A stretch of 64,000 nt of DNA from positions 96,185,446 to 96,249,445 of the forward strand of contig NC_052349.1 in NCBI RefSeq assembly GCF_009727055.1. The letters are read 5' to 3'. The translations under genes and the position numbers were made by a program. A model generated the notes under the pieces. It made no database searches. It saw nothing but the letters and a program-made list of their open reading frames with translations, and was not told the origin of the DNA. Positions 3,551-64,000 of this stretch are shown here, one piece after another (position 1 is the stretch's first letter; every line of letters starts with the position of its first letter). This stretch comes from Benincasa hispida. Lineage: Eukaryota; Streptophyta; Magnoliopsida; Cucurbitales; Cucurbitaceae.

Positions 3551-4112
3551 CTATGAATCTGTGTCATTAAATAATGCCTTGGAAACAGAACGACATGACT
3601 GATTTCCATTCTTAACAGCTTCTTCATCGCCATCTTGGTGCTCTCTTTGGAACGAGTGACTTTTTTCTGGAGTCTCACAAACCAGGTCATTGCTTTCCCT
3701 ATTTGGGTACTTCCTTTTCGATGCCTTTTTAAGATGATTCATCTTAGGTTTCCTTGCCTTTGTTTGCTTTGGTGCCCAAACTCGGTGCAAATCTGGTACC
3801 CAACTCGTGAAAGATGCAAATCTTCTGGCCCTTTCTCTCATTTCTTGAGCTTTGATCAGTTTGCAAGTGTAGACATTATTGATCCCTGGAGATTTTTCAT
3901 TGTTTTTTTCATGGGTTTTATTTTCCCCTGAAACTGGATCATTGGAGCTATAGTTGTCACCGACTTCATCGCTAAGTAAGTTGTCTCTCCAAGAATGATT
4001 GCTATCCTCACTGTAGAGAGGGTGATTGGTAGATATATTCTCATCAACAAACAACAACAAATCCATTTTTTCATAGATCTTATTCACAATATCTCCTAGA
4101 CTTTGGCAATAC
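3551..4112 (-). CDS. TICRR: TICRR-like gene, terminal exon 3
   Basis: 562 nt. The acceptor AAAATTTCAG ends at 4113; the first base completes an Arg codon (AG from exon 2 plus G). The frame then reads YCQSLGDIVNKIYEKMDLLLF and continues to TAG at 3551. It carries the linker, the RRFASFTSW...RVWAPKQ block, the basic stretch and the TPEK site. The in-phase join across 13.3 kb and the continuation of the family helix pattern are the evidence that it belongs to exons 1 and 2. Confidence 0.82.
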
Positions 4113-7100: not shown

Positions 7101-10100
7101 TCTTTCATTAAAAAGATTAAAAAACTTATGATCCTATATGGTTGTCGCCTGACAGTGAAGACAATGGATGTAGCAAGAGCGGTAGATTCTTCAAATATCA
7201 TAAAAGGAGCTTATGGCTTTGGTTTCAACTCATCCCAATTAGAAACACTTTAAGTTTGGGTGTACTAACTCTAGTTAAATTTCCTTCATGTATTCTCTAG
7301 TTTGAGAGTGCGAAAAAATGTACGAGTAGTCAAAAGCTTTAAGAACCAACTGAGCAAGAAATAATCAAACAACTTTCGAGAGAGTCAAGCCACGCCACTT
7401 ATCAATCTTCATTTTAAACTTCTCCTCAGACCTTCCCATGGCACCATGCTTTCCCCCAATGGGAAACCCCAAGTAGTTGAAGGGAAAGTTCCCCACTTTA
7501 TAGCTAAGAATGGAAGCATGAAAATCAATCTCTTCAAACATCCACCTATCTCTAGAATGGTATGATAATACCAACTTTGGGCATAAATCTTCATGGCTTT
7601 GTTTTTGGAACCACCCAAAAGACCTCATACCAATGGAGATAATTGTCCTCACTTATATGCCCATGATCTTTTCCTTCCCTAACCAATTTGGACTTTGTTT
7701 GCACTCCTAACAAACCTCCCCTTGAACAAAGTACCACTCTTTCAGCCCCTCCTTGAACAAATTCGTCCGCTCCCAACCATGAGAGCTTGCTCTTCATCTT
7801 AAGCCACATCCACTTCATCCTAATTGATCTTGCTCTTTATCCCAAGGTGCATCCTGTTCATCTTGAGTCAACATCCATATAGAGCATGAGCATGAGCACA
7901 TATCACACTTGTTCTTATCAAGGTAGGGGAGACAACAAGACTATCCAGATAGATCATGAACGAGGCTCACTAAATTTTTTTGTTTAAAATTTGAGGATTT
8001 TACCCACACAGTTAGATACAAATCACGACAAGGATACCAATTGATAAGGACAATGGAACCTCCTCTATCTCCACAATGGTATGATATTATCTACTTTGAG
8101 CCCTCATGCGTTGCTTTTGGAACCACCTAAAAGGCAGCATACCAATAGAGATAAGCCCTCACTTATATACCCATTATCACTTCCTTCCCTAACCAATGTG
8201 GGGTTTGCTTTGCACTCCTAACATCAACTATTCTTATGGGAAAACAGTCTAACCCTACTATTTTAGGTTGCCAAAGAAACTATATTAAATTTTAAGTAGG
8301 TGATCACCATAAATTGAACCCATTCTCTCTAAGTTCTTTATGTAAACAGTTCTTTATTATTTACCAGGCCTTTATAAACCACCGAGCCAATTCATGGTGT
8401 TTTCTCAACATAAAACCTTTAGATCCAATATTTCAACAATAACAACGCTCGACTCTTCCAATTGATGTCACTAATTCCCAGACCTCTCTCTTCTATGGGA
8501 AGAGGAACTTTTTGCAATAAGGTGGATATCCCCTTTTTCCTTGCTTCCATGCCACAGGAAGTTAAGTAATAAATGAGTAAGATTGAAAGAGTAGCTTGGA
8601 CAAGAGTCAGACAAACCACTTTAGCAAAGTAGGTCCCTTTCCCTTTCCACCTTGCATTCAGTGGAAGATCCAAATATGTTGCTGGTAGACACATTTTGCA
8701 CCCTACCTGAGAAATTTTTTTTCCCCTAAAATTAAGAAACTAAGCTTTAAGTGAGAAAATTGCTAGAATACACCAGGCCTAAAAGCCCTCAACTACCTAC
8801 AAGAACAAGCTTCGACCCAAAAGAATGGCATTAAGCTAATAATTACTGATCAAGGGTTTTGCTTCACACTTCTTTGTGAGGAACGGCTGTGATGGTTCAG
8901 GTGTCACAAATTTATCTAAGTTCCATGGTTCCTCAGGATGGATTATGCAATGCATTGTTTGGCCATCTTTTGGGGTAGATACTTGTAAAACTCTTAGGTT
9001 TGAGAAAGAATCAAAATGCTCTATTCATTCACCAAAGATATGAATATATACAAGTGCACAAAGCATAGAAAAGGAAAATATCACAAAATATTTACAAGAA
9101 TGGAAAACCCTAACTATAGAATTATAACTCCCCCTCAAGTTGGAGCATATATGTTAATCATGCCCAACTTGTTACATAGATAATCTATACGTCTTCCATC
9201 CAATGCTTCATGAAGATATCTTCTAATTGTTCTCCAGTCTTCACATATCCTGTAGACATCAACCCTTGTTGAATTTTCTCACGTACAAAATGGCAATCAA
9301 CTTCAATATGTTTAGTCCTTTCATGAAATACTGGATTAGACGCAATATGAAGTGCTATTTGATTATCACACCACAACTTTGTCGATGTGGTGATTTCAAA
9401 TCCCAACTCAACAAAAAGATATATCCAAATCAATTCACACACAGATTGTGCCATTGCTCTATATTCTGATTCCGCACTTGAACGTGACACCACATTTTGC
9501 TTCTTACTCTTCCAAGAAATCAAATTACTACCAACAAAAACACAATACCCTGAGGTTGATCTTCTGTCTTCTTTAGATCCTGCCCAATCGGCGTCTGAGA
9601 AATATTCAATATTAGTATGACCATAATCCTTATATAATAAACCACGCTCGGGAGCAGCCTTCATATAACAAAGAATCTGTTCCAATGCAACCCAATGATC
9701 AACTATGGGGCATGACATATACTGACTCACAATACTTACTGAATAGGCTATGTCGGGTCGAGTCACTGTAAGGTAATTAAGTTTTCCCACTAACCTCTTA
9801 TATCTTTCAAGATCTTTTAGCAATTCTCCATCTTTTGTGAGTTGTAAGTTGGGCATTATTGGGGTGTACTACATGGCTTAGCCCCTAGCTTTCCTGTTTC
9901 AGTCAACAAATCAAGTACATATTTTCTCTGTGATAATAGAATTCCTTTCTTGCTTCTTATTACCTCAATTCCTAAGAAGAATTTCAACATGCCCAAATCT
10001 TTTGTACGAAATTGACTATGAAGAAAGGTCTTTAGAGACTGAATCCTAAAGCATCATCACCAGTAATCACAATATCATCCACATATACGACTAACAAGAA

Positions 10101-13100
10101 GACACCACCCTCAGATCTCTTAAAAAAGACCGAGTGATTTGACGTGCTCTTCCGCATTCCAAAGCTTTCAATCACCTGGCTAAATTTACCAAACCAAGCT
10201 CGTGGGCTCTGCTTTAATCCATACAAGGATTTACGAAGGCGACACACCATTCCATTCTCCCCCTGAGCAACAAACCCTGATGGTTGCTCCATATACACCT
10301 CTTCTTGAAGATCACCATGAAGAAATGCATTTTTAATATCAAGTTGATGTAAAGGCCAATGATTGATTGAAGCTAATGAAATAAACAACCTCACAGATGC
10401 CATTTTTGCTACAGGAGAAAAAGTATCAACATAGTCAACGCCATAAGTTTGTGCATAGCCTTTCGCTCGCTACAATGCGTGCTTTTAACCAAGCAACAGA
10501 ACCATCAGGATTGACTTTAACTGCAAACACCCATTTGCAACTAATAGCTTTCTTTCCTGCAGGGAAAGAAATTAAATCCCAAGTACAATTATCATCTAAG
10601 GCAGTCATCTCCTCCACCATTGCGGCACACCAACCAGGATGAGACAAATCCTCATGAACAGTTTTAGGGATGGATACAGACTCTAACGATGCAATGAATG
10701 AACATATGGAAGGCGACAAATGGTTATATGAAACAAAAGAGGAAATAGGATGAGCATATGTACGTTTACCTTTACGTAAAGCAATAGGAAAATCATCACT
10801 CGTTTCTGGATCCAATGACGAAGAAGACTTTGGTACAGGGCATGGAACTGAAGGAGGTTGTCGTCAAGTATAGACCTCAACGATGGGTGGAAGAGTAGAG
10901 GTAGCCACAGGTAGAGATGAATCAGGAAGAGGATCGAAAGGAGAAATAACTGCGTAGACAAAGAAATCATCCTCTAATTCCTTATGCTCCCCCTGACTCT
11001 TATTCGAAGAGAAAGACGGTGATGAAAAAAATGGGGTATGTTAAAAAAAATGTGATATCATGAGAGGCAAAATATTTATTTAGACTAGGACAATAACACC
11101 GATACCCCTTTTGAACACGAGAATAACCAAGGAAAATACATTTTAAGGACTTTGGATCCAGCTTGGTATGTTGAGGCCGAACATCCCGAACAAAGCAGGT
11201 ATAACCAAATATTTTGGGTGGAATGGAAAACAAATGTTGCTTGGGGCATAAAGTACGAAAAGATATCTCACCCTTAAGAATGGAAGAGGGCATGCGATTT
11301 ATTAAGAAACAAGCTGTGGAAACAGCATCAGCCCAAAAAGATTTTGGAACATGCATCTGAAACATCAAAGCTCTGACTGTCTCAAGGAGATGACGATTCT
11401 TCCATTCTGCAACCCCATTTTGAGATGGAGTATCGACACAAGAAAATTGATGAAGAATGCCATGGGTATCTAAATAAGACTTGAGTGTATGAGAGAAATA
11501 TTCCTTAACATTATCACTCCGTAGGATTTTAAGAGTACCACTAAACTGAGTTTGAATTTCAGTATGGAAGTTATGAAAATGAGAAAGTAACTCAAAACAA
11601 CTTTTCATTAAATATAACCACGTAACACAAGAATAGTCATCGACAAATGTAACAAAATACCTAAACCCTCCTTTGGACTCAACAGGACATGGACCCCAAA
11701 CATCAGAATGGACTAATTCAAAATGAGCACTAGTTCGTTTATTGACTCGAGGATACAAACTCAAACGATGAAATTTAGCAAACTGACATGACTCACAATC
11801 TAAAGAAGACAAATGTTGAAGTTGTGGACGAAAACTCTTCAACACAAAGATTGACAGATGACCTAAACGACAATGCTCTTTAAAGGGAGACGACACGCTT
11901 GAGCATGTAATGGTCGTAGGTGTTTATGGTTCAAAGATGTAAAGACCTTCAAATTCACGCCCTTTACCAATAGTCTGTTTCGTCGTAAGATCCTAAAATA
12001 AGCAATAACCAGGAAAAAATGAGACACAATAATGAAGATCACGAGTGATTTTACTGATCGAAATCAAATTAAACAAGAAATGTGGTAAATTTAAAACTGA
12101 TGACAAAGAAATTGATTCAGTAAGATCGACGACTCCTGATCCTAAAACAGGAGTGGAGGTTCCATCAGCTATAGTGACATTAGGTGAAGTGGTAGATGTA
12201 CAAAGGTTAGAGAATAAACTAGGTTATCTGTCATATGGTCTGTAGCGCTAGAGTCAATGACCAATTTTGACGTGGAGGAAAGAAGGCATTTAGAAATGTT
12301 ACCTGTCTCTGCGATGGCCATAATGGGAGTAGAAGATGATGCCTTTAATGACTCTTGATATTGCTGAAATTTAACAAACTCCTCTGCAGAAATCATAATT
12401 GACTTGTCAAGATTATTAGGGGTAGAGGCGACATGTGCAAAGGGCGATGGCATCCTCTGACCCTTATTCATCAATCTTCTGCATTCACGCTTCGTATGGC
12501 CAGGTTTATGACAATAATAGCAAACAATACCTCTTGAATTTGATCTTTGGTTATTGGGATGACCTTTGGAGCTATTTGATTCAACCCCCTTATTACCTCT
12601 ATAATCATTTGTGCGCCCAATCAAAGCACTACTAGAATCAGATGACGTAACTGCTTGTGTCTTCTCAATATGAAGTATTCGAGTGTAAGCTTCTTTCAAC
12701 AATGAGATATTTGATCTTGACAACACTTGATCTTTGGCCATCTCATATTTAGGTGCAAGACCTACTAAAAAGCTCATGATAAACAACTTTTCACGTTGAG
12801 CCATTAAAACTTTTGGATCCATGCTGATTGGCATCAAGGCATTGAATTCCGCGCATGTATTTTTAACATCCATAAAGTAGCTTGTAAGAGAGTTTTCTCC
12901 TTGATCAGGTTGATATAGAGTCTTACAAACATCAAACACTCTATTAATATTCTCTTTCCTGAATAAAGGAAATCCAAATATTCCAATAGTTCCTTGACTA
13001 ATTCACATTGATTTACTAGTTCAACGATTTCACGGTCAATAGAATTCTTGATCTGTAGAAGCATTCTTGAATCCGCCACCAAATCTTTTTATTAGCATCA

Positions 13101-16100: not shown

Positions 16101-19100
16101 AGCACTAAACAACAAGCCTGGCACAAGATCCTCCCCTTATGAAAAAAGGCGAGTTCATCACAATCTCGTCAAACAAAGACCAGCAATCCCTATCACAAAC
16201 CACATCAACCCCAAACATCCTAAAGCACTCATTCCAGATAGAGTAGGTAAACTAGTAGCCCCACAGAAGATTATCAAGATCCTTGATCCTTCTCCTGCCA
16301 TCGCCTATCTACAAAGATCACACCATTGTGGGTGCAAAACCAAGGTAGCATGTCGTTGAATACAATCCTGGGTGTTTACTCTTCCATGAAGGACTTGCTA
16401 GACAAAAAACTACACTTGCATAGGAACAATAACCTTCCCAGATATTGTATCATCATCGATCCATTTTACATTTTATTGTTCCAAAGCCTTAATGGATTAT
16501 AGTTGCTTTTCGTTTACTATTAGAGACTTTGGTTTCGAGATGAATCCATGTCCCGATCAACCATTAAAAGGATTCTTTTTTCCACCAATCATCCACCCTG
16601 GGAGCAAATGAAAGATGGAGAGTCTACATGTTTTGAACTTGAAAGGAACTCATACCCCATTCCTAAGCATCAAGAGTTTATGATCGGAGGTGTATTGGTT
16701 CAAAAATATCAAGGCTCTATTGACTATTTATCTATTGAAAGGTTTTGTGCCTTGATTTATCCACCATAGGAAGGGACTTGGGGGTCTTGGAGATATGACT
16801 CATTGCTCCAACATTCAAATTTGAGGGTGAATTTGAGGGTGGAGATGTAACTGTGTACCAATTTTTTTGTATTCTAGAGTGTAGAAGCTTGTTCGAAGTC
16901 TTCATGATTCAAATAGACTTTGTTTGGTTGAATAGGATAATGGAACAAAAGTCACTAATATTCTGTTGGCCTGCTCTCAAGATACGATACCAATCATCAT
17001 GAAAGTTTCTCCCATGTATACTAATAGTGGGTGATAAGTCAATGGAAGCAAGCATGTACAGTGCCCAAGGTGGTTAAGGGGAATTAATGGGGGGGCAGGT
17101 GATTTGGGGTAGGAGGGCCTGTGGGTAGTTCCATAGATATTTTTCTGAATAATGCTTTTGTGAAAGGTCTCATTAATGGAGGGGGGATGAAGCGGGTGGG
17201 TAGTTGGTGCATGGTGGTAAGCTATTTTATCTTTTTATGATTCACCATAATTGGAAAAGCCTTTAGCAACTAGTCTTATCAAGAAGGGATCTCCCAAACC
17301 CCTGCCTTTAGGTGGTCTCTTTTGACCTAATATACTTCCAAGTTTTTTTATTAAAATAATAATAATAATAAGATAAATATACTTTTCGCAGAAACAAGTA
17401 CCTGCTTTTTATGATTTTTCCAACATAATTTTTTATGCTCCACTCTCCAAAAAATCCTCCCTCCAAATGGCATTGAATTGTCTCTAAAAGCAAACAAATA
17501 TCTTTGACGAACTTTTGCTTCATAGATTCACTAACATTGAGAATAATCAGCGAACGTAATATCTCCAATCGAAAAAAGATCTGCAATTCATGTCTGGTGC
17601 TTGTTAAGAAAAAATGCATGAAGGAAATGGATTCAGATCATTCAACTATCAATCTCAAAAGAAATATAAGAAAACTATAAGTAAGCAAAAATAAATAATT
17701 CAATCCAAGGATACTCTCTGACTATGTGTTCTGAGGTTTGTCCAGCAGATCCTGTACTACACTCCTCGAAGGGGAGGCCACTGATCTTGGGCTTGGTAGA
17801 CAAGTCTTCGGGCTCCCTCAGCAAGAGTTCATTTAGTTTTGTAGCAACTGCACAACTGATACTTGAATCAGACTTTCTGGCATTTGGTTGATCATCTGAA
17901 GTTCCCTGCATTTCCTGCTTTTGACTTAACCAGTATATAGTTGAACTCACAAGTCGCTCCGCCAATGCACCCAAGTCAACAACTTTGGACTCGAGTCCTT
18001 GCTGGATCTTACTGGAAAGATTATTGAAAAAATCTTCGGAAGTCTCCAAATGATGGTCAATTGTTGCTTCAGCCAATGTTTCAGAGGCCTTAGCCAAGGG
18101 ATTTTCTTGACCTGATGATGTTGTTGGTTCTTTGCTTTCTTGTTGCAACCATCTTAAACTATCATCTTTTTTAACGAGAATGTCCCACTGTAATTGCAAC
18201 TTCTCCGGTAACAAAAGCCCACATAAAGTGGATTTCTTGATCTGTTTTACCCAGCTTTTGAAAAATTTCAATTTCTTTGAGCTATTACAATATCTGTCAA
18301 AGTAAGCATTTTCAAGATCAATCTTCACGTGTTCAAATGCTGCCTTGTAAAAATCTGCCCAAGTGAATTTTTGGATTGAATGTCTAGTTTTCTTCTCTGC
18401 TTTCATTTTACCATCTCCATCTTGAGAACACTTAACAGAAAGAGAAGCATCAAAATCAACAACATTATGTGATCTGGTCAAATCACCACCAAGTTTGCAA
18501 GTATTGTTACCTTTTTCAGTCCCCAATTCTTCCAAACACCTATCTTCATTAGTAGGCTCCAACATGAGAGGGTAGAATTCGTTGTCAATGACAAAGAGAA
18601 GAGCTGAAGAAACCATAAAAGGTTTTAAGATTCCTAAATGTGAACCACCATTGGCATTCGAAATAGACACCAATGCCCAATAACCTTCCCCATAAAGAAA
18701 ACTCATAAGAAGCTGAAAAAAAGGAATAGGTTTTGGCATTTTACAGTCATCCAGTTCAAGTGCCATCATTTCCAAAACCTCATCAGCAAAAAATTTTCCA
18801 TTACTTCCCTGGATGATCTTTACTGGCGCTTCTGGAAATTCAAGCACAAGAAATGGATAAGATAAATGACCCTTGTATCTCACTAATTCCCTACACTTCT
18901 GCACAGCCTTAACATGTAGCTTTACAGCACCATCACCAAGCAAGTCCAAAGATACTTTCCTTTGCTCATAGCCATCTGATCTCATTTTCAATCCTCCTGG
19001 TACAAGCAAAGGATCATCAGATCTGTCTTCAAACAATGTCTTCCAATCAAACAATTCAAGATTGCAAAACTTGCATTCTAGTGGCTTCTCGCTTTTATCC

Positions 19101-20014
19101 AAAATCTCAAGGCACAGTCGAGCTTGAACTTTCTTCTGAAACTTATAAATGTCAAAATTTCTCAAAGGCATTCCTATCTTAGGGTAAATCAGCCCAAAAG
19201 GAAGAAGCGCAGATCCCAAAACTATGGAGTTCGACGAGCAAAATCCCCATCCTAAGTTCCTAATTCCACTCTTTAAAAAACTAATTTTTTCTTTCAGCTC
19301 ATCATTATTTATCCTATTATCAGCAGACTCATGGCTAACATTAATCCAACTAAATTGAATATCCCTCTGCGAAAATGCAGCATTCACACTTTCAAACAAC
19401 CCATAAAATCTTCTACTAAACAAATCCCGATCATTAACACATTCATCGTCAATAGCCACTCCCAGAAATCCAGACAAACATCCAACCAATTCGGAAAATG
19501 GTGAAAATAAAACAACCAATTTTTTTCTAACACCAAGGCAATCAAAACTTTCAGAGGCCATTCTAAGTTCCAAATCTTCCATCACAGAGTTCCAAGCATA
19601 GTCATGCAAAAGTTGACGCATCGATGCTGCGAGACACGAAGCCTGTGAGGTCATCGATTCAGAAGCTTCACACAATGGAAATCGATGAAGTTTCAACAAC
19701 AGATCAATGGCATTTGAGAGAGAATGGAAAGTTGCAGTTGGGTGGTCAAAGGAGAGAGAAAGAGGGCAACTAGGAATCAAACTGTGGAGTTTGGAGGAGG
19801 AAAGGAGAGGAGAGAGAGAGGAAAAGAAGAATCTGAAGGAGAAGAGAGTTGAGGATGAAAATGGAGGAAAAGATAGTAGAATTTTGGCAGTAGAAGTGAC
19901 AGCAGTGAGATATGAAGATGGGCTTTGGAGATGGTGAAGTGGGTTGAGATCAACAAGGAGGACTATTCGGTGGGTTTTGGAGTAATCTAAAATTGGATCA
20001 AACGCCATTGCCAC
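3551..20014 (-). CDS. TICRR: Treslin/TICRR/SLD3-type DNA replication initiation protein (3 exons)
   Basis: Family role: Treslin/SLD3 proteins act in the nucleus, bringing CDC45 to the loaded MCM2-7 helicase and binding TopBP1/DPB11 after CDK phosphorylation, so they help fire replication origins. Seen here: ATG at 20014, exons 20014-17715, 17599-17402 and 4112-3551, all with GT/AG borders and matching phases, giving 1,019 residues. The N-terminal 350 residues begin with a von Willebrand-like opening (HRIVLLVDLNP, residues about 14-24). Residues about 770-850, spanning all three exons, match the Treslin/SLD3 core: HELQIFFRLEILRS aligns with the family's LQ-F-RLE motif and the next helices end in SLGDIVNKIYEKMD. 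The C-terminus has a conserved-looking RRFASFTSWVPDLHRVW block (about 930-946), a basic KARKPK...KKASKRK stretch (probable nuclear signal) and a TPEK site (Thr about 980) fitting the CDK consensus. No stop or frameshift is seen. The plant protein is shorter than vertebrate Treslin, which has a long C-terminal tail. Intron 2 is 13.3 kb and full of transposons. Confidence 0.82.
4318..4615. mobile_element. MITE with about 43-bp terminal inverted repeats
   Basis: The left end (caaaaaccactcctaaagta...) and the reverse complement of the right end match over about 43 bp with few differences, and the interior is itself partly palindromic (repeats of 'gggtccaatttctac' and 'caattttaacatttgta' on both arms). 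No coding capacity. The flanks do not show a clear target duplication, so the superfamily is open. It lies 205 bp inside intron 2 from exon 3. Confidence 0.75.
4616..5665. other. AT-rich intron sequence, no element recognised
   Basis: No protein-like frame. A TATAAATAGAGAATTC phrase at about 5184-5199 resembles a plant TATA box and might come from a truncated LTR, but I could not find the other parts of such an element. A poly-A tract (5606-5630) sits just before the next element. Confidence 0.4.
5666..7330 (+). mobile_element. short non-autonomous copia (Tnt1-like) element, copy 1
   Basis: The left LTR (about 5666-6046) has a TATA box (5715-5722) and ends CCCAACA. It is followed by a primer site TGGTATCAAAAC (6049-6060), close to the initiator-tRNA-Met type. 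The interior begins with a decayed copia gag: the phrase FDLWQVQVKDVLI can be read near 6133-6172. The right LTR starts near 7185 and is recognisable to about 7330, then lost. No protease, integrase or reverse transcriptase is present. A near-identical layout occurs at 55644-57110. Confidence 0.75.
6325..6845. mobile_element. hAT-like non-autonomous insertion in the short copia element
   Basis: Begins TAGGGGTG and ends CACCCCTA, so the ends are inverted repeats. It is flanked by 8-bp CATGAGCA (6317-6324) and CATGGACA (6846-6853), each one change away from CATGGGCA, the uninterrupted sequence in the sister element at 56441-56448. An 8-bp duplication and short TIRs fit the hAT superfamily. The interior is full of GGTTCGAA / AACCGAACC words and has no coding frame. 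A phrase near 6590-6603 (ctcgatcccgcgacc) resembles a tRNA-derived B-box but no complete tRNA fold is present. Confidence 0.75.
7365..7535 (-). pseudogene. LINE reverse-transcriptase fragment
   Basis: Minus-strand translation contains SYKVGNFPFNYLGFPIGG and KIDKWRGLTLSK, which follow the plant L1-type LINE pattern (VG-x-P-x-YLG-x-P-x-GG, then a KW...LS-K block after the catalytic core). Only about 57 codons remain. It is bounded on one side by the TRIM at 7536 and on the other by the truncated right LTR of the short copia element. Confidence 0.7.
7536..8223 (-). mobile_element. TRIM-type miniature LTR element
   Basis: Two direct copies of about 180 bp (roughly 7536-7712 and 8042-8223) share the phrase 'aatggtatgataat...cttcatggctttg' and end CTCCTAACA. 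Between them lie 330 bp without an open frame of interest. A degraded primer site (gataccaatt, 8033-8042, on plus; TGGTATC on minus) next to the right copy sets the orientation as minus. A third LTR of the family is at 54889-55098. The element belongs to the small dispersed LTRs common in eudicots. Confidence 0.65.
8224..8418. other. spacer between TRIM and LINE fragment
   Basis: No feature recognised. Confidence 0.4.
8419..8700 (-). pseudogene. second LINE reverse-transcriptase fragment
   Basis: The minus-strand peptide reads LPATYLDLPLNARWKGKGT, then CLTLVQATLSILLIYYL and GLGISDINWKSRALLLKYW-like text. These are the YLG-LP, RLTLIQA-LSS-PIYYLS and GGLGI...NRALL-KW blocks of plant LINEs, in the right order and spacing but with substitutions and missing segments. 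It covers the same part of the protein as the fragment at 7365-7535, so the two come from different LINE copies. Confidence 0.72.
8701..8978 (+). pseudogene. LINE ORF1-like segment, left of the copia insertion
   Basis: Continues on the far side of the copia element at 14279: removing the insertion rejoins 'ttttggggtagatact' to 'ttattcatattcc'. The sequence is non-coding in detail because of frameshifts, but continuity across the insertion and the LINE 3' end downstream suggest an ORF1-type region. Confidence 0.4.
8979..8983. repeat. target site duplication ATACT (left)
   Basis: The identical 5-mer follows the element at 14274-14278. A 5-bp duplication is the usual size for copia elements. 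Confidence 0.9.
8984..9128 (-). repeat. copia 3' LTR
   Basis: 145 bp; on plus it starts TGTAAAACTC and ends ATTATAAC. Compared with the other LTR there are four single-base differences, indicating an insertion that is not very recent but not ancient. Confidence 0.88.
9185..9856 (-). pseudogene. copia reverse transcriptase C-terminus and RNase H
   Basis: 223 codons open on minus. Contains the copia RNase H landmarks in order: YFSDADWAG (first Asp), TSGYCVFVGSNLISWKSKKQ, RSSAESEYRA (catalytic Glu) and LWCDNQIAL (Asp), then the conserved HERTKHIEVDCHFVRE segment. The frame ends with an early stop shortly after. The N-terminal side (PDIAYSVSIVSQYMSCP) is the connection region; the part joining it to the catalytic core (9857-10031) is frameshifted. 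Confidence 0.9.
10032..10970 (-). pseudogene. copia reverse transcriptase (frameshifted)
   Basis: Three overlapping minus frames make up one domain. 10403-10032 holds LDIKNAFLHGDL (first catalytic Asp), SLYGLKQSPRAW and the YVDD active site (10085-10074), all intact. 10815-10435 holds the upstream part, with WDLISFPAGKKAISCKWVFAVK as in the copia W-L-P-K-W-VF-K block. The frame changes near 10420 and again near 10815, and the N-terminal linker to 10970 is in a third frame. The catalytic residues survive but the protein cannot be made in one piece. Confidence 0.88.
11000..11896 (-). pseudogene. copia integrase
   Basis: 298 codons open on minus. Begins in the HHCC zinc region (EHCRLGHLS...CESCQFAKFHR), then the core with Asp in LVHSDVWGP, Asp in LRSDNVKEYF (the usual Gly after SDN is Val) and Glu in NGVAEWKNR, spaced as in the D,D-35-E family. 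The C-terminal part has the copia GYTCFVRD...KLDPKSLKCIFLGYS...KGYRCY segment. The frame is cut off from gag/protease upstream by frameshifts. Confidence 0.9.
12169..13264 (-). pseudogene. copia gag with zinc knuckle and protease motif
   Basis: Starts at ATG 13264 (MADKKPVVMSEI) and reads the UBN2-type copia gag pattern (LNGSNYYSWRSNVRYFIKSM), changes frame around 13020-13080 and 12840-12940, then stays open to 12169. The CCHC knuckle CYYCHKPGHTKREC is complete (12522-12481). The protease motif near 12255-12225 reads IDSSATDHM, with Ser where the copia active-site triplet DSG has Gly, so the protease is probably dead as well as frameshifted. Confidence 0.88.
13745..13758 (-). other. primer binding site (initiator tRNA-Met type)
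   Basis: Minus strand reads TGGTATCAGAGCTC immediately after the 5' LTR end. This matches the 3' end of plant initiator tRNA-Met and fixes the orientation of the copia element. Confidence 0.92.
13759..14273 (-). repeat. copia 5' LTR interrupted by a LINE tail
   Basis: The LTR sequence runs 13759-13826 and resumes at 14180/14196 to 14273. The 353 bp between are foreign (see 13827-14179). Without them the LTR is about 146 bp, as long as the partner LTR. Confidence 0.9.
13827..14179 (+). mobile_element. 5'-truncated LINE inserted in the copia LTR
   Basis: 353 bp flanked by a 16-bp target duplication, AGATACGAATATATAC (13811-13826) and AGATATGAATATATAC (14180-14195). The insertion ends in an A run preceded by 'aataaagaggctcgtttccgt', the typical 3' UTR end of plant L1 LINEs, and contains the 3' UTR phrase 'gggggtgtcaacctagttgaga'. 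It is only the LINE 3' UTR. It must be younger than the copia insertion. Confidence 0.88.
14274..14278. repeat. target site duplication ATACT (right)
   Basis: Pairs with 8979-8983. Confidence 0.9.
14279..15968 (+). mobile_element. degenerate LINE, 3' part
   Basis: Ends with 'tcaatgaaaaaagtcttgtt' and an A run at 15960-15968, the same 3' signature as the LINE tail at 14179, on the same strand. The body has only short frames (for example 14305-14541, 14960-15163) of ORF1-like composition and no reverse transcriptase, so ORF2 is deleted. It starts upstream of the copia insertion (8701-8978). Confidence 0.6.
15985..16470 (-). pseudogene. LINE C-terminal zinc-finger (zf-RVT) remnant
   Basis: Minus-strand translation around 16425-16310 reads VLHGRVNTQDCIQRHATL then PQWCDLC, the HGRLNT...LQRR...P-WC-LC signature of the zf-RVT domain at the end of plant LINE ORF2. 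Downstream text (LLWAVWIE-NNRLF near 16110-16060) matches the WVVWLERNNRVF block. Many stops and shifts. Confidence 0.65.
16471..17401. other. intron sequence without a recognised element
   Basis: Last part of intron 2 before exon 2. An open frame at 16548-16769 on plus has no recognisable domain. An AAT-type microsatellite lies at 17353-17370. Confidence 0.4.
17402..17599 (-). CDS. TICRR: TICRR-like gene, exon 2 (core SLD3/Treslin helices)
   Basis: 198 nt. Acceptor TTAACAAG ends at 17600 and donor CAG/GTACTT starts at 17401. It opens with one base completing codon 767 and closes with two bases of codon 833. It codes for THELQ-like helix residues (TRHELQIFFRLEILRS) and the following helices (VKDICLLLETIQ; IKNYVGKIIKS), the part that best identifies the family. 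Intron 1 between exons 1 and 2 is only 115 bp (17600-17714). Confidence 0.85.
17715..20014 (-). CDS. TICRR: TICRR-like gene, exon 1
   Basis: 2,300 nt coding residues 1-766 plus two bases of codon 767. The first ATG of the long open frame is used; MAMAF gives a second ATG two codons later as an alternative start. The frame runs past the splice site to a TAG at 17675, but I end the exon at 17715 because GTATCC follows and the phase then matches exon 2. The last 17 residues of the unspliced frame (ending FIFAYL) are intron sequence. The exon is Leu/Ser/Phe-rich at its N-terminus and acidic/lysine-rich near residues 500-570. Confidence 0.85.

Positions 20015-25383: not shown

Positions 25384-25413
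<30 letters not shown>
25384..25413. repeat. AT microsatellite
   Basis: About 15 AT units, between the helicase remnant and the copia LTR. Confidence 0.9.
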
Positions 25414-31329: not shown

Positions 31330-31914
31330 TCAAAATGGACTGAAAATCCTATAACTCATTGAGAAGTGTAGTCGATTGTATACTATATTGTTCATTAACG
31401 CATTGATGCGAAATTGCAAGAAGCTCTTCGGAAGAGACTGTAGAATAAAACCAACTTGACTCTTCTCGTCTACGACAATGTTTACCTCTGCCACATTGAA
31501 ATGGACCATCATGTCCAAGTCTTGTTCTTTAACAGAGTCTCCTTCTTTCATTCGGTAGTTGTAAACATATTTGATAGCACTATGCCTCAGGGAGAAGGAT
31601 GGTTGTCGAAACATCCCACGTAGAGATTCCATAATCTCTTTGGCAGTATATATGTTTTCGTGTTTCTTAGCCATGACATCAGATATGTTGGAAAGAATGT
31701 AGGCATGAGCTTTTTCATTCGCCTTCGTCCATTTGTCGTATGCTTCCCGAACAGTTTGGTTTGCATTTGAGCTAGGGATGGGAGGACATTCCTCTATCAA
31801 AATGAACCTTAAATCGTCTATCACCAGTATTGTGTTCAAATTTGATTTCCATGTAGCATAATTGTCCCCAGTTAATTTATCCGAAGCCAATAGTTGTATT
31901 AATGAACTAGTCAT
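31330..31914 (-). pseudogene. copia gag (UBN2 type)
   Basis: 194 codons open from ATG 31914. The start MTSSLIQLLASDKLTGDNYATWKSN and later blocks KAHAYILSNISDVMAKKHE, SLRGMFRQPSFSLRHSAIKYVY and FILQSLPKSFLQF are the copia gag pattern common in cucurbit genomes (recall). The frame ends soon after and the next part, with the zinc knuckle, is in another frame. There the knuckle reads KYFYCSEDGHWKRNYP, so two of the four zinc ligands (first and last Cys) are Tyr. A dead gag. Confidence 0.88.
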
Positions 31915-39451: not shown

Positions 39452-40578
39452 TTTGGGGTTGATGCTCTATGGTCTCGTGTCCTGTAGTTTGTAAACAGTT
39501 TGTACAAATGCTTGTGTTATATAATATATGATATTTACTTCACATCTTGGTTTTGCTCAGTTGTATGTCTTATTTGTTTTACCACAAACAAATAAACATA
39601 AAATCATTGGTTATCTATATGTAACTTAAGCATGTATGTGATGACATACAAGTAGATCATGTCTTAAATGACAACCAAAATGGTCTATAGTATATGGATA
39701 TGGGAGGGAAACCTTATCCTGGTAACGCTATGGATGCGGCTCGCTTTATGAAATGGTCACAAGTGTTGTGACTTGTCACAGATGGTCTGATCTTGATCAT
39801 TCGTGTAGGGGACATACGAGCAGGGGCATCCTATACAAAGAGTTTATATAAGACCCCTGACCACGAAGTGTTAATGTCTCGTTATATAACACCGTTCATG
39901 ACAGAGACTTCATTTCACTAGGATGACCATAGGTAACATGACTTCAATCCTGAGTGAGTTGGGAACTCCTGCCATTGAGGGTGGTCCTTTGATTTGTATG
40001 GGTGCGAGTGGCCAAGTCGCCAATTCAAACCTACCATTTTAGGGATTCGTCTGATTTGGGAGCTGGGAACTCAGCTACACAAGATGGAATTCACTCCTTC
40101 CCCAAGGCAGAGGTAAATAGATAGATATCTCCTTTAAGGGCTGATTCTAGGGCTTGAACGATGTAGTGCCACACACCGTCCCTTGGCTCGAGAAGTGTTC
40201 ACACATAGTTGGACTATGTTGTATTGTTCATTAGAGGAATCAGTGGTACTTAAGAAGTGAGATGTAACTATAGGGGCAAAACGATAAATTGGCCTAATTG
40301 TACTTATGAGCATCTGTGAAGGGTCATTGTACTCATGATTGGTTATATCTGATTGACACATAAATATATCTGTGGTAAGAAGAGTCCAGTTGTTGGTCTT
40401 TAGTTGAATGTCTGGCAGTTAATGGATGGTAGATCTCGTGGCTAAAGACTTTAGTCAGCTATTCACGTATCGTTGGAGTTTTGAGTCACAGGTTCATAAG
40501 GTCCCCTAGGTAGCTTGGATAAAGTCGAGAATAAGTTTTCGAGTCAGTTTAAAATATTCAAATTGACAAGAAGGAGTT
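39452..40578 (+). repeat. copia LTR fragment on plus, first part
   Basis: Reads GGGGTTGATGCTCTATGG...GTAGTTTGTAAAC, then the family landmarks 'ccttatcctggtaacgctatggatgc', 'aactcctgccattgagggtgg' and 'aagatggaattcactcc' in the order seen in the solo LTRs at 34990-37002 and 51905-54084. It is interrupted at 40578 by another element and resumes at 42671. Confidence 0.75.
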
Positions 40579-41179
40579 AATGACACGCAGAAATGCATGT
40601 CATCTTAGGCCTTTTACTTAGAATTATGAAGGTTGTTAGGCAGAATATGCGGCAATCATGATAGGAATTCACGAGAAAATGAGCTTGCATCGATCAACAT
40701 GTTGAATCTCAGCTAACCTATTATTTTGCGTTATTATGTATTCAATGTTCTATTTTTGTAGCTAAAACAGGAAATAAACGTAAACGCGGAAACTAAACCA
40801 CCGCATAGACGACCGCTTGCGGAGAAACTCTCCATCGCAAAGGCAAACACATCGATCAACGCATAGATGTTGCGGTAATCAGCTGTATGCGTCCATCGCA
40901 TGAAAGTTGCGCTCGTCAGGCGATTGTAGTCATCGTGTAGAGTTGAGGTATTAAGCGAATGCAGTCATTGAATGATTGTGGCTACGCGACAACGCATACT
41001 AATGGGATCAATGCAGGGTTGGTGGAATGAACGCATCAACGCATCTACCTCGAGAAAAACCAAAAGATGATGCTGACATTTCACCTACCATGTCATTAGT
41101 AGTAGAGGTTCATAAAAGACTAACATGCCGAATGTCAGACTCAGAGTAGTCCAATTAATGCTGCCGGCAACCCAAGCTC

Positions 41180-41187
41180 TATAAATA
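41180..41187 (+). promoter_or_regulatory. TATA box of second-family LTR
   Basis: TATAAATA in the context AGCTCTATAAATAGAAGC, typical of a plant LTR promoter. The first adapter copy begins 36 bp downstream, where transcription would start. Confidence 0.6.
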
Positions 41188-41222
41188 GAAGCCGATGAGT
41201 GGAAATTCAAGTTATCCGGGGA

Positions 41223-41260
41223 CTGTCTCTTATACACATCTAGATGTGTATAAGAGACAG
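41223..41260. other. Nextera mate-pair junction adapter, copy 1 (assembly artefact)
   Basis: The Tn5 mosaic end CTGTCTCTTATACACATCT followed directly by its reverse complement AGATGTGTATAAGAGACAG, 38 bp exactly. This is the circularisation junction of the Illumina Nextera mate-pair library, a synthetic sequence, not plant DNA. Confidence 0.98.
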
Positions 41261-41337
41261 GATCAACGCATAGATGTTGCGGTAATCAGCTGTATGCGTC
41301 CATCGCATGAAACTTGTGCTATCAAGCGATTACGGTC
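41261..41337. other. 77-bp segment between adapters, position doubtful
   Basis: Repeats 40856-40931 (gatcaacgcatagatgttgc...) with several differences. Being enclosed by adapters, it comes from untrimmed mate-pair reads of another repeat copy and may not belong here. Confidence 0.85.
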
Positions 41338-41375
41338 CTGTCTCTTATACACATCTAGATGTGTATAAGAGACAG
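41338..41375. other. Nextera mate-pair junction adapter, copy 2 (assembly artefact)
   Basis: Same 38-bp palindrome as copy 1, 115 bp further on. The minus-strand open frame 41499-41263 translates it as SYTHLDVYKRQ, a peptide well known from contaminated predictions, so that frame is not a gene. Confidence 0.98.
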
Positions 41376-42670
41376 TCCTTGACGCACATCCGATGGAAGC
41401 AAGTCTTTGCTTCCAGCCGGTCATTCCATTTCCCTTTCTTTTCTTATATTGTATTGTATGACATTTTGTGATTAAGGAATTAATACAATTTGTTTTCAAT
41501 ACATTTCTCTATTCCTTCGACTCCATCTCCATCTTCTTGCTTAGCATCTTTACTTTCATTGTAACACTTAATGGGATTGCTTGGGTATCGCATATTAGTC
41601 ATGTGAATTAGGGATATGAAGTATGTAGCAACCCACCGAGAGGTGTGCGTTGCGCGAGTGTGTGAGTAATCTTATTTGCTTAGTGTGAAGCTGATGCAAT
41701 GCCTGTCTATAGGCTAATGCATTGCTTGTCTATGAGTAAAGTCAGCAACAATCAACTGCCCAGGAGGATAAGTGGTTGGTCGCATTAAGCAATGTATGCA
41801 TTGTTCACTAGAGATAAGAACAATCTTAGGTCAGCAAAGTTCATGCGGTTACCTTATCCTATGAGCGCATCATTCATCATTTAGGCATACTTGGGAGAGT
41901 AGTCTAAAACACAAATCTAAGACTCGAGAGAGCGAATTGGAATGCATAGACAAGAATGGGGATCTTAGAGATAAGCTATGTTTGCTTCACACAGCGTATG
42001 CACCCTACTGAATGGATTTGCATGCATCCAAGAAGTAGGATAAGGGGTTATGCAGTAGCCACGCTCATGCGGCGAGAGCTAGTGAGCTGGTTATGGAGGT
42101 CTAGGCAGGCATAGGCTTCTCGAAAATATCCCAGATACACCGCATACGTTCTAGAGTTAGGTTCACGTTTGTATAGCATGATTGCATGGTTTGCGTTGAC
42201 TAAGGTTGCCCTTGCGGTCACTCTTAAGGATTGGAATGAAATCATCTCCGCATTTTATCTATTTTCCCATACATTTATTTCATGTCAAGTGTTGTTGTAT
42301 CTCTACCTCTCATGCATATTCTCATTGCGTTGTCTGTTAGATAGGAGTAAGAGTAGGGTTTACTTAGCAGCCTCCCTTCCATTCTTTTATTTAAACTGCC
42401 GCATGCACATTACCACATACATATAGCTACAAATCCTTGTGTTCGACCTCGGATTACCCAAGAAACTTGCATTCGCGTTATACTTGGCGTGAGCGCAAGA
42501 AAACTTGTGACAGGACGCATGGTCATCGCATACATTTATTAACGCATAGTCATTCTAACGCATGACCATCGACGCATGACTATCAACACATATCTTAGGA
42601 ACATGTGTCACATACCGCGTCTAAGGGATTTTAGTTGTCGAGTAAAATTGACTTCTAATTTCCCATCACC

Positions 42671-59449: not shown

Positions 59450-59533
59450 GAGAAGTTCTCTTCATTTGTAGGGCAGAATTTTCTACACTCAGAAGACCCA
59501 GAGAGAATTCACTAACAAGCAGACGACTCCCAA

Positions 59534-59785
59534 GACTCCTGAAGCTGTACTCCTATAAGGCAGAAGACTTTTGAAGATACAAATACTCTTCCAAGACTTC
59601 TACTTCAAGCTTCCAAGACTCCTGAAGCTGCACTCCTATAAGGCAGAAGACCTTTGACGATACATAATACTCTTCCAAGACTTCTACTTCAAGCTTCAAT
59701 GACTCTTGGAAGCTGCACTCCTTATAAGGCAAAGACATCTGAAGAAACAATAAATACTCTTACCAAGGACTTCTGCTCCAAGCTT
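59534..59785 (+). repeat. 83-bp tandem repeat inside the gypsy LTR
   Basis: Three units starting at 59534, 59617 and 59701, each 'gactcctgaagctg...ggcagaagac...ctcttccaagacttctac', with a few changes and small indels. The whole repeat is in the LTR downstream of the TATA box. Confidence 0.88.
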
Positions 59786-62507: not shown

Positions 62508-62600
62508 ATTAAGAAGCTCCTCATTGCACAAACCTAAACTGCATGATGCTCCTAGCCCGCATGAGCTTAAAATGTGAACGGCTAAAAAAAAAATTGTATG

Positions 62601-62865
62601 AACTACATTACGACTTGATCCCTTTCATTATAAATGGTACGTAGGCAACTTAAAGAAATTTAAGTTCAGTCGTGCATAAAAAGAAAAAAAATTCTCTTCG
62701 AACTACATTATGACTCGATCTCTATCATTAAGAAAGGTATGTAGGCAGCTTGAAAGAAACTTCAAGTTCAGTCCAGTTAAAAAAAAAACTTGAACTACGT
62801 CATGATTCGATCCCTTTCTTTAAAGGTACAAAGGAAACTTAAAGAAATTTAAGTTTAGTCCATCA
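62601..62865 (+). repeat. about 95-bp tandem repeat 3' of gag
   Basis: Three units beginning at 62601, 62701 and 62793, each 'gaactacattatgactcgat' followed by 'ccctttcat..aa.ggtacg' and 'aagaaatttaagttcagtc', separated by A-rich spacers. Confidence 0.85.
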
Positions 62866-63177: not shown

Positions 63178-63330
63178 CAAATGTGAAGAATTTGTCGATG
63201 CTTTTTCAAACTTAAGTGCGAAGGTCTTGTCGATGCTTCTCCATATTTAAGTTCAAAGGCTTCATTGATGCTTCTCCATCTTTAAGTTCAAAGGCTTCGT
63301 TGATGCCTCTCCATCTTTAAGTTCAAGATT
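63178..63330 (+). repeat. 46-bp tandem repeat
   Basis: About three units of 'tttaagttcaaaggcttc' plus 'gttgatgcttctccat'. Part of the non-coding interior of the gypsy element. Confidence 0.8.
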
Positions 63331-63445
63331 GGCATGCATGGCTCCACTTCCATCTTCAAGTTAAAGGTCGGTGTGCATGGCTCGGCTCCATCTTCAATGA
63401 CTCGGTCTACAAAATCATGACGCAGCTTCGCTTCATCCCCAAACT

Positions 63446-63622
63446 AATGACATGGCTTCACTTCATCTTCAAAGTCGTGGCGTGGCTTCGTTTCATCTCT
63501 AAACTAATGACGCGGCTTCACTTCATCTTCAAGTCGTGGCGTGGCTTCGTTTCATCTCCAAACTGATGACGCGACTTCGCTCAATCTTCAAAGTCGTAGT
63601 GCGGTTTCGTTTCCTCTCCAAA
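63446..63622 (+). repeat. 59-60-bp tandem repeat
   Basis: Units at 63446, 63506 and 63565: 'atgacgcggcttcacttcat' then 'cgtggcgtggcttcgtttca'. Differs in sequence and period from the neighbouring arrays. Confidence 0.85.
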
Positions 63623-63689
63623 ATATTGGTACAACTTCATCTCTTCTCCAAAATTTGTGTAGTTTCGCTTCCTCTCTAAAAATGTGGGT

Positions 63690-63840
63690 ATGGTTCCACC
63701 TCATATGCGAGATCAAGTTTGGTTTGTCTAGCTCTACCTCATATGTGAGGATGACTCTAGTCCCTCCGGCTCCACCTCATTTGTGAGGACAACTCTGGTC
63801 CGTCTGGCTTCACCTTGTACGCGAGATCGACTCTAGCCAA
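63690..63840 (+). repeat. about 46-bp tandem repeat, GC-rich
   Basis: Three to four diverged units of 'ccacctcatatgtgaggatg' plus 'actctagtccg'. The internal half 'cctcatatgtgagg' is palindromic. Confidence 0.7.
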
Positions 63841-64000
63841 CCTAACTTCGTTCAAAATCTTGATGGCACATTCTTCTCATCTTCAAGGTTTGATGGTATA
63901 TCCGCCTCATCTTCAAATACTCAATGACATATTTCCCTTATCTTCAAATTTTGATCAAGGAGTAACATAACAAGGCAAACCTTTCGAGGATCCTCCCTAG
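63841..64000 (+). mobile_element. gypsy interior, cut by the window end
   Basis: Continues with CTTC-rich phrases (atcttcaa...). The element's pol region and 3' LTR, if present, lie outside the window. Confidence 0.5.

Follow-up and report, generated by a model that had tools for sequence, protein, structure and literature searches.

Two probable mate-pair junction adapters around a 77-nt repeat piece in a plant contig

We report that the two perfect 38-nt palindromes found in the window, by which we mean the whole 64-kb stretch of DNA that was analyzed, are almost certainly (probability approximately 0.97) junction adapters of a mate-pair library that were left untrimmed. The Nextera mate-pair junction adapter shares its organization with these units: the 19-nt mosaic end joined to its own reverse complement, 38 nt in all. 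On the basis of a chain of printed sources we take the Nextera adapter to have exactly these 38 letters, and the library is likely to be one of the Nextera kit rather than another one with the same adapter.

Table 1. Positions of the putative adapter units, the insert and related features in the window.
Feature	Position	Strand	Remark
Mosaic end	41223-41241	+	exact match
Mosaic end	41242-41260	-	exact match
Mosaic end	41338-41356	+	exact match
Mosaic end	41357-41375	-	exact match
First putative junction adapter (mosaic end and reverse complement)	41223-41260	.	perfect 38-nt palindrome; letters as in the printed ring adapter (passage in PMC7357533)
Second putative junction adapter	41338-41375	.	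perfect 38-nt palindrome, identical to the first
Insert between the adapters	41261-41337	+	77 nt
Direct copy of the insert	40854-40925	+	only strong match to the insert in the window
Spurious open frame	41189-41365	+	59 codons; first unit reads VSYTHLDVYKRQ, second ends CLLYTSRCV

Identity of the 38-nt units

The 19-mer CTGTCTCTTATACACATCT, which is the mosaic end of Tn5, occurs four times in the 64-kb window, and each occurrence is a perfect match (Table 1). Beyond these four the 19-mer is unmatched in the window even if two mismatches are allowed, and with the same tolerance of up to two mismatches the maximum count in 100 shuffles of the window was 0. The matches form two units with a start-to-start distance of 115 nt, exactly as the first-pass annotation of this DNA had described them. 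With their arm of 19 nt these units are the two longest perfect palindromes with zero spacer in the window. The next-longest, with an arm of 16 nt, is a perfect TA microsatellite (25384-25413, centre at approximately 25398). The letter N does not occur in the window, and the other adapter oligonucleotides that were looked for are absent from it in an exact search.

Exactly these 38 letters are printed in PMC7357533 as a biotin-labelled ring adapter for the circularization of fragments of approximately 4 kb. The ring adapter differs in being ligated to ultrasound-sheared DNA, and the passage that describes it mentions no transposase and names neither Nextera nor mate pair. For the Nextera kit, the description in the NextClip paper (PMC3928519) is that the transposase attaches a 19-bp biotinylated adaptor and that circularization pairs the adaptors. 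The junction adaptor is sought there as 38 bases, one adaptor forward and one in reverse complement, with no letters printed in that description. The same process of transposase and circularization is described in PMC4074385. Use of the Nextera kit is stated in passages of a bitter gourd study (PMC5381343) and a watermelon study (PMC6835170), and nothing in these passages links the window to either study.

According to the passage in PMC3347997 the mosaic end combines the outside and the inside end of Tn5 in a chimera optimized for in vitro use; an oligonucleotide table in the same paper gives the mosaic end and the outside end. Measured against these printed letters, the mosaic end has mismatches to the natural outside end at 3 out of 19 positions; to the inside end it has mismatches at 4 out of 19. 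We rejected a natural Tn5 end as the identity of the 19-mer on account of these mismatches. The units might still be regarded as natural Tn5/IS50 ends, either bacterial or transferred to the plant, as the 19-mer is a transposon end derived from Tn5 (PMC3347997, in the passage concerned) and has in common with the outside and inside ends that it is a 19-nt recognition end of the transposase. We give this reading practically no credence, because the sequence matches the engineered mosaic end and because the ends stand back to back, unlike natural ends, with no transposon body. The gap of only 77 nt between the units contains no gene for a Tn5/IS50 transposase.

Just as hard to believe is a real palindromic repeat of the plant whose identity with the adapter would be due to chance or convergence. 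The presence of a second copy of the insert nearby would fit a plant repeat, yet this upstream copy has no adjoining palindrome, the 19-mer has no further match in the window as stated above, and the 38 nt are identical, twice, to an adapter whose letters are printed in the passage in PMC7357533.

Occurrence in other records and predicted proteins

In an exact scan of genome contigs (collection genome_contigs) at least 120 stretches from prokaryote assemblies contained the 38-mer; among the matches listed they represent 19 unrelated assemblies (Enterococcus, cyanobacteria, Collinsella, Streptomyces, Ideonella and others). Viral contigs contributed seven stretches, two of them sharing one contig. 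The adapter extends beyond draft assemblies and is not confined to them, because 4 out of the 120 listed stretches (L032, L108, L122 and L127) belong to records with the title “chromosome”, of which one is a “complete sequence”. No occurrence was found in 20,395 E. coli records, which is a further argument against natural Tn5/IS50 ends, and none in 50,697 phage records. The 38-mer was present in 5 out of 72,556 plasmid records, showing that the search was able to detect it. The 38-mer was therefore found in assemblies of unrelated organisms and is rare in finished records. If positions 40500-42300 of the window were compared to the plasmid collection by blastn, the adapters alone matched, in the same five records.

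One plasmid record, NZ_MT039157.1, is labelled circular and complete and has the 38-mer as its final 38 bases (78697-78734, corresponding to 1501-1538 of stretch L132). This suggests that the plasmid circle was closed via the adapter.

For comparison with the window we used 127 loci from prokaryote and viral contigs, containing 154 palindromes in contexts that are all distinct. The ends adjoining the adapter were scored on a Tn5 target consensus. After exclusion of duplicates, of ends shorter than 40 nt and of those containing N or adapter sequence, 277 distinct ends were retained. Adapter-adjoining ends have a score of 3.65 out of 7 on this consensus, compared to approximately 2.4-2.7 at offsets beyond nine, and there is a strong base preference at positions 1, 2, 4-6 and 9. 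As a class, the ends beside the 38-mer are Tn5 cut ends. The four ends in the window reach percentiles of 0.42, 0.98, 0.70 and 0.75, one of them being clearly Tn5-like and three not, and this mixed signal is no more than suggestive. Taken together, the letters in the printed passage, the 38-base anatomy, the scattered distribution and the Tn5 signature of the class are in agreement with the first-pass annotation, which had recognized the junction adapter of a commercial mate-pair kit.

A further aspect concerns the peptides that are predicted from the adapter. Because the unit is palindromic, VSYTHLDVYKRQ can be read from either unit and on either strand. The peptide SYTHLDVYKRQ had been assigned to an antisense frame; it is indeed translated from the adapter, but it is not specific to the antisense strand, as the plus-strand frame in Table 1 is open too. 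A protein search with this plus-strand frame yielded 454 proteins with E ≤ 10 among 568 candidates. SYTHLDVYKRQ is present in all 120 proteins among the matches listed (120 of the 454) and LLYTSRCV also in 110 of them, counts from which no rate can be derived, since the query contains both peptides and the listing is biased towards proteins with a double adapter. Judged by eye, the sources are mostly contigs of 500 to 1000 bases, and for 118 out of the 120 listed proteins the source is ENA. The occurrence in every listed match lends support to the earlier statement that the peptide spreads into protein databases. In a text search of a library of papers, VYKRQ occurred in four papers, and neither SYTHLDVYKRQ nor LDVYKRQ occurred in any.

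The insert and the origin of the join

The copy that matches the insert sits 407 nt upstream. If 41261-41331 is aligned to this copy, which runs in the same direction, identity over the 72 columns is 93% with a single gap, and 58 out of the 60 leading positions are identical. The runner-up match to the insert within the window has an E of 0.06. A repeat partner for the 77 nt had been noted earlier at 40856-40931; a direct and diverged copy does exist, and its span is the one given in Table 1 and not exactly the earlier one. Since the insert has diverged by 7% from the local copy, it probably represents a different unit of the repeat. A second site at which the left and right flanks of the adapters run together was not found in the window.

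The following route could lead to such an arrangement. In a Nextera preparation, the DNA is cut by Tn5 transposase, which adds a 19-nt end at each end of a fragment, and circularization then unites two of these 19-nt ends to an adaptor pair of 38 bases (PMC4074385, PMC3928519). Were the reads left untrimmed, the common 38-mer might be taken as an overlap by an assembler or a gap filler, because every junction contains the same 38-mer. The false path would then run from the sequence up to 41222 through an adapter into a local repeat piece (41261-41337), and from there through the other adapter into the sequence from 41376 onwards.

This route can be compared with the behavior of the other loci. 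In 15 out of 27 cases the gap between neighboring palindromes was 260 nt or less. For 12 out of these 15 short inserts, a copy in the same locus covered at least 60% of the insert. The 15 inserts stem from 11 loci in 4 assemblies and are not independent, as 11 out of the 15, and 9 out of the 12 with a copy, come from Enterococcus sp. 10A9_DIV0425. All 12 copies were direct and none was inverted, and the remaining 3 out of 15 inserts had no copy that reached the 60% threshold. Among 216 control pieces taken from these loci, 30 had another copy, with both orientations counted. The copies are identical (100%) across the aligned part in 11 out of 12 cases, compared to 93% in the window. At one locus (L092) the copy of the insert is located within a neighboring insert that is itself bounded by adapters. 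An overlap of at least 4 nt between the flanks was seen at 21 out of the 147 junctions with flanks of sufficient length, compared to approximately 1.2 for re-paired flanks. The junctions in the window have flanks overlapping by 2 nt each, which is uninformative.

The behavior of these loci is better explained if the adapter served as a false overlap and local sequence was used again than if a short fragment of unrelated origin had been ligated at random. By comparison with them, we consider it probable that the join in the window was made in software, within a gap in the repeat, and we keep our confidence in this step lower because of the large share of comparison inserts from one assembly. 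The first-pass annotation had also proposed a mis-join of untrimmed reads within a repeat, and the support that this proposal receives is wholly by analogy, in that the 12 out of 15 inserts, mostly from that same assembly, stand against 30 out of 216 controls.

A physical concatemer is a possible but less likely origin. A fragment of 77 nt would have been ligated between the two ends of one long fragment at circularization, and a read, or a merged read pair, running from adapter through insert to adapter would have been assembled. Such a join is still an adapter artefact, but one that was made in the tube. It would account for the complete junction that bounds the insert on both sides, and for the left end of the insert, which reaches the 98th percentile when scored as a Tn5 cut site; in addition, the case for local copies made from other loci depends largely on one assembly. 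On the other hand, an unrelated fragment could come from anywhere in the genome, yet the insert matches a sequence close upstream, an argument that becomes weaker if the repeat is common genome-wide, and most of the comparable inserts elsewhere are local direct copies. A join in software is more likely than a concatemer because of these local direct copies at the comparison loci.

There is a very slight chance that DNA with the mosaic end was deliberately put into the donor plant or clone, in which case its palindromes would be genuine, or, less boldly, that a genuine array of diverged repeat units at 40.85-41.4 kb was collapsed and left unspanned by the assembly and has its place marked by the adapters.

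The arrangement in the window resembles leftovers of the Nextera adapter elsewhere, which occur singly and in doubles over unrelated assemblies, have local direct copies inside the doubles and give rise to the same predicted peptides. It differs from them in that the contig is from a plant, the copy of the insert is diverged and not perfect, and the Tn5 signal at the ends is mixed.

Genomic surroundings and consequences for the assembly

A frame of 779 codons at 17675-20014 (minus strand) shares 84-85% identity with Cucumis sativus and Cucurbita pepo proteins; for the remaining named plants, among the matches listed (120 of 285), identity is at most 47%. The frame also has 90% identity to the protein P0004 over 84% of the query. 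We regard the window as nuclear DNA of a plant, and a cucurbit is the most likely source. The frame at 3551-4087 (minus strand) has 90% identity to residues 720-894 of the same P0004. The two frames look like the C-terminal (3551-4087) and the N-terminal (17675-20014) part of one Treslin-like plant gene. Between these parts lies a frame (11003-11896) with an integrase core and a retroviral SH3-like domain, and further away a frame with a copia-type gag (31333-31914), each being one out of eight frames searched. The frames at 9188-9856 and 12172-12939 appear copia-like by eye and had no match in Pfam.

A CT-rich array of low complexity (155-445) lies beneath long frames of the plus strand, and these frames are probably spurious. 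Towards its right-hand end the window contains several tandem arrays, the repeat units of which are 30 to 119 nt long, at 59530-59785, 62584-62862 and 63194-63916. Scans of the window for Rfam families and tRNA genes found nothing.

Positions 41223-41375 are very probably an artefact of the laboratory and of software, of an ordinary kind, and not biology. The value of the observation is one of quality control. The stretch is to be masked, the contiguity of the join between 41222 and 41376 is not to be trusted, and predicted peptides with SYTHLDVYKRQ or CLLYTSRCV should be treated as doubtful. An adapter pair around a local direct copy may flag badly closed repeat gaps, if this holds true beyond the four assemblies with short doubles.
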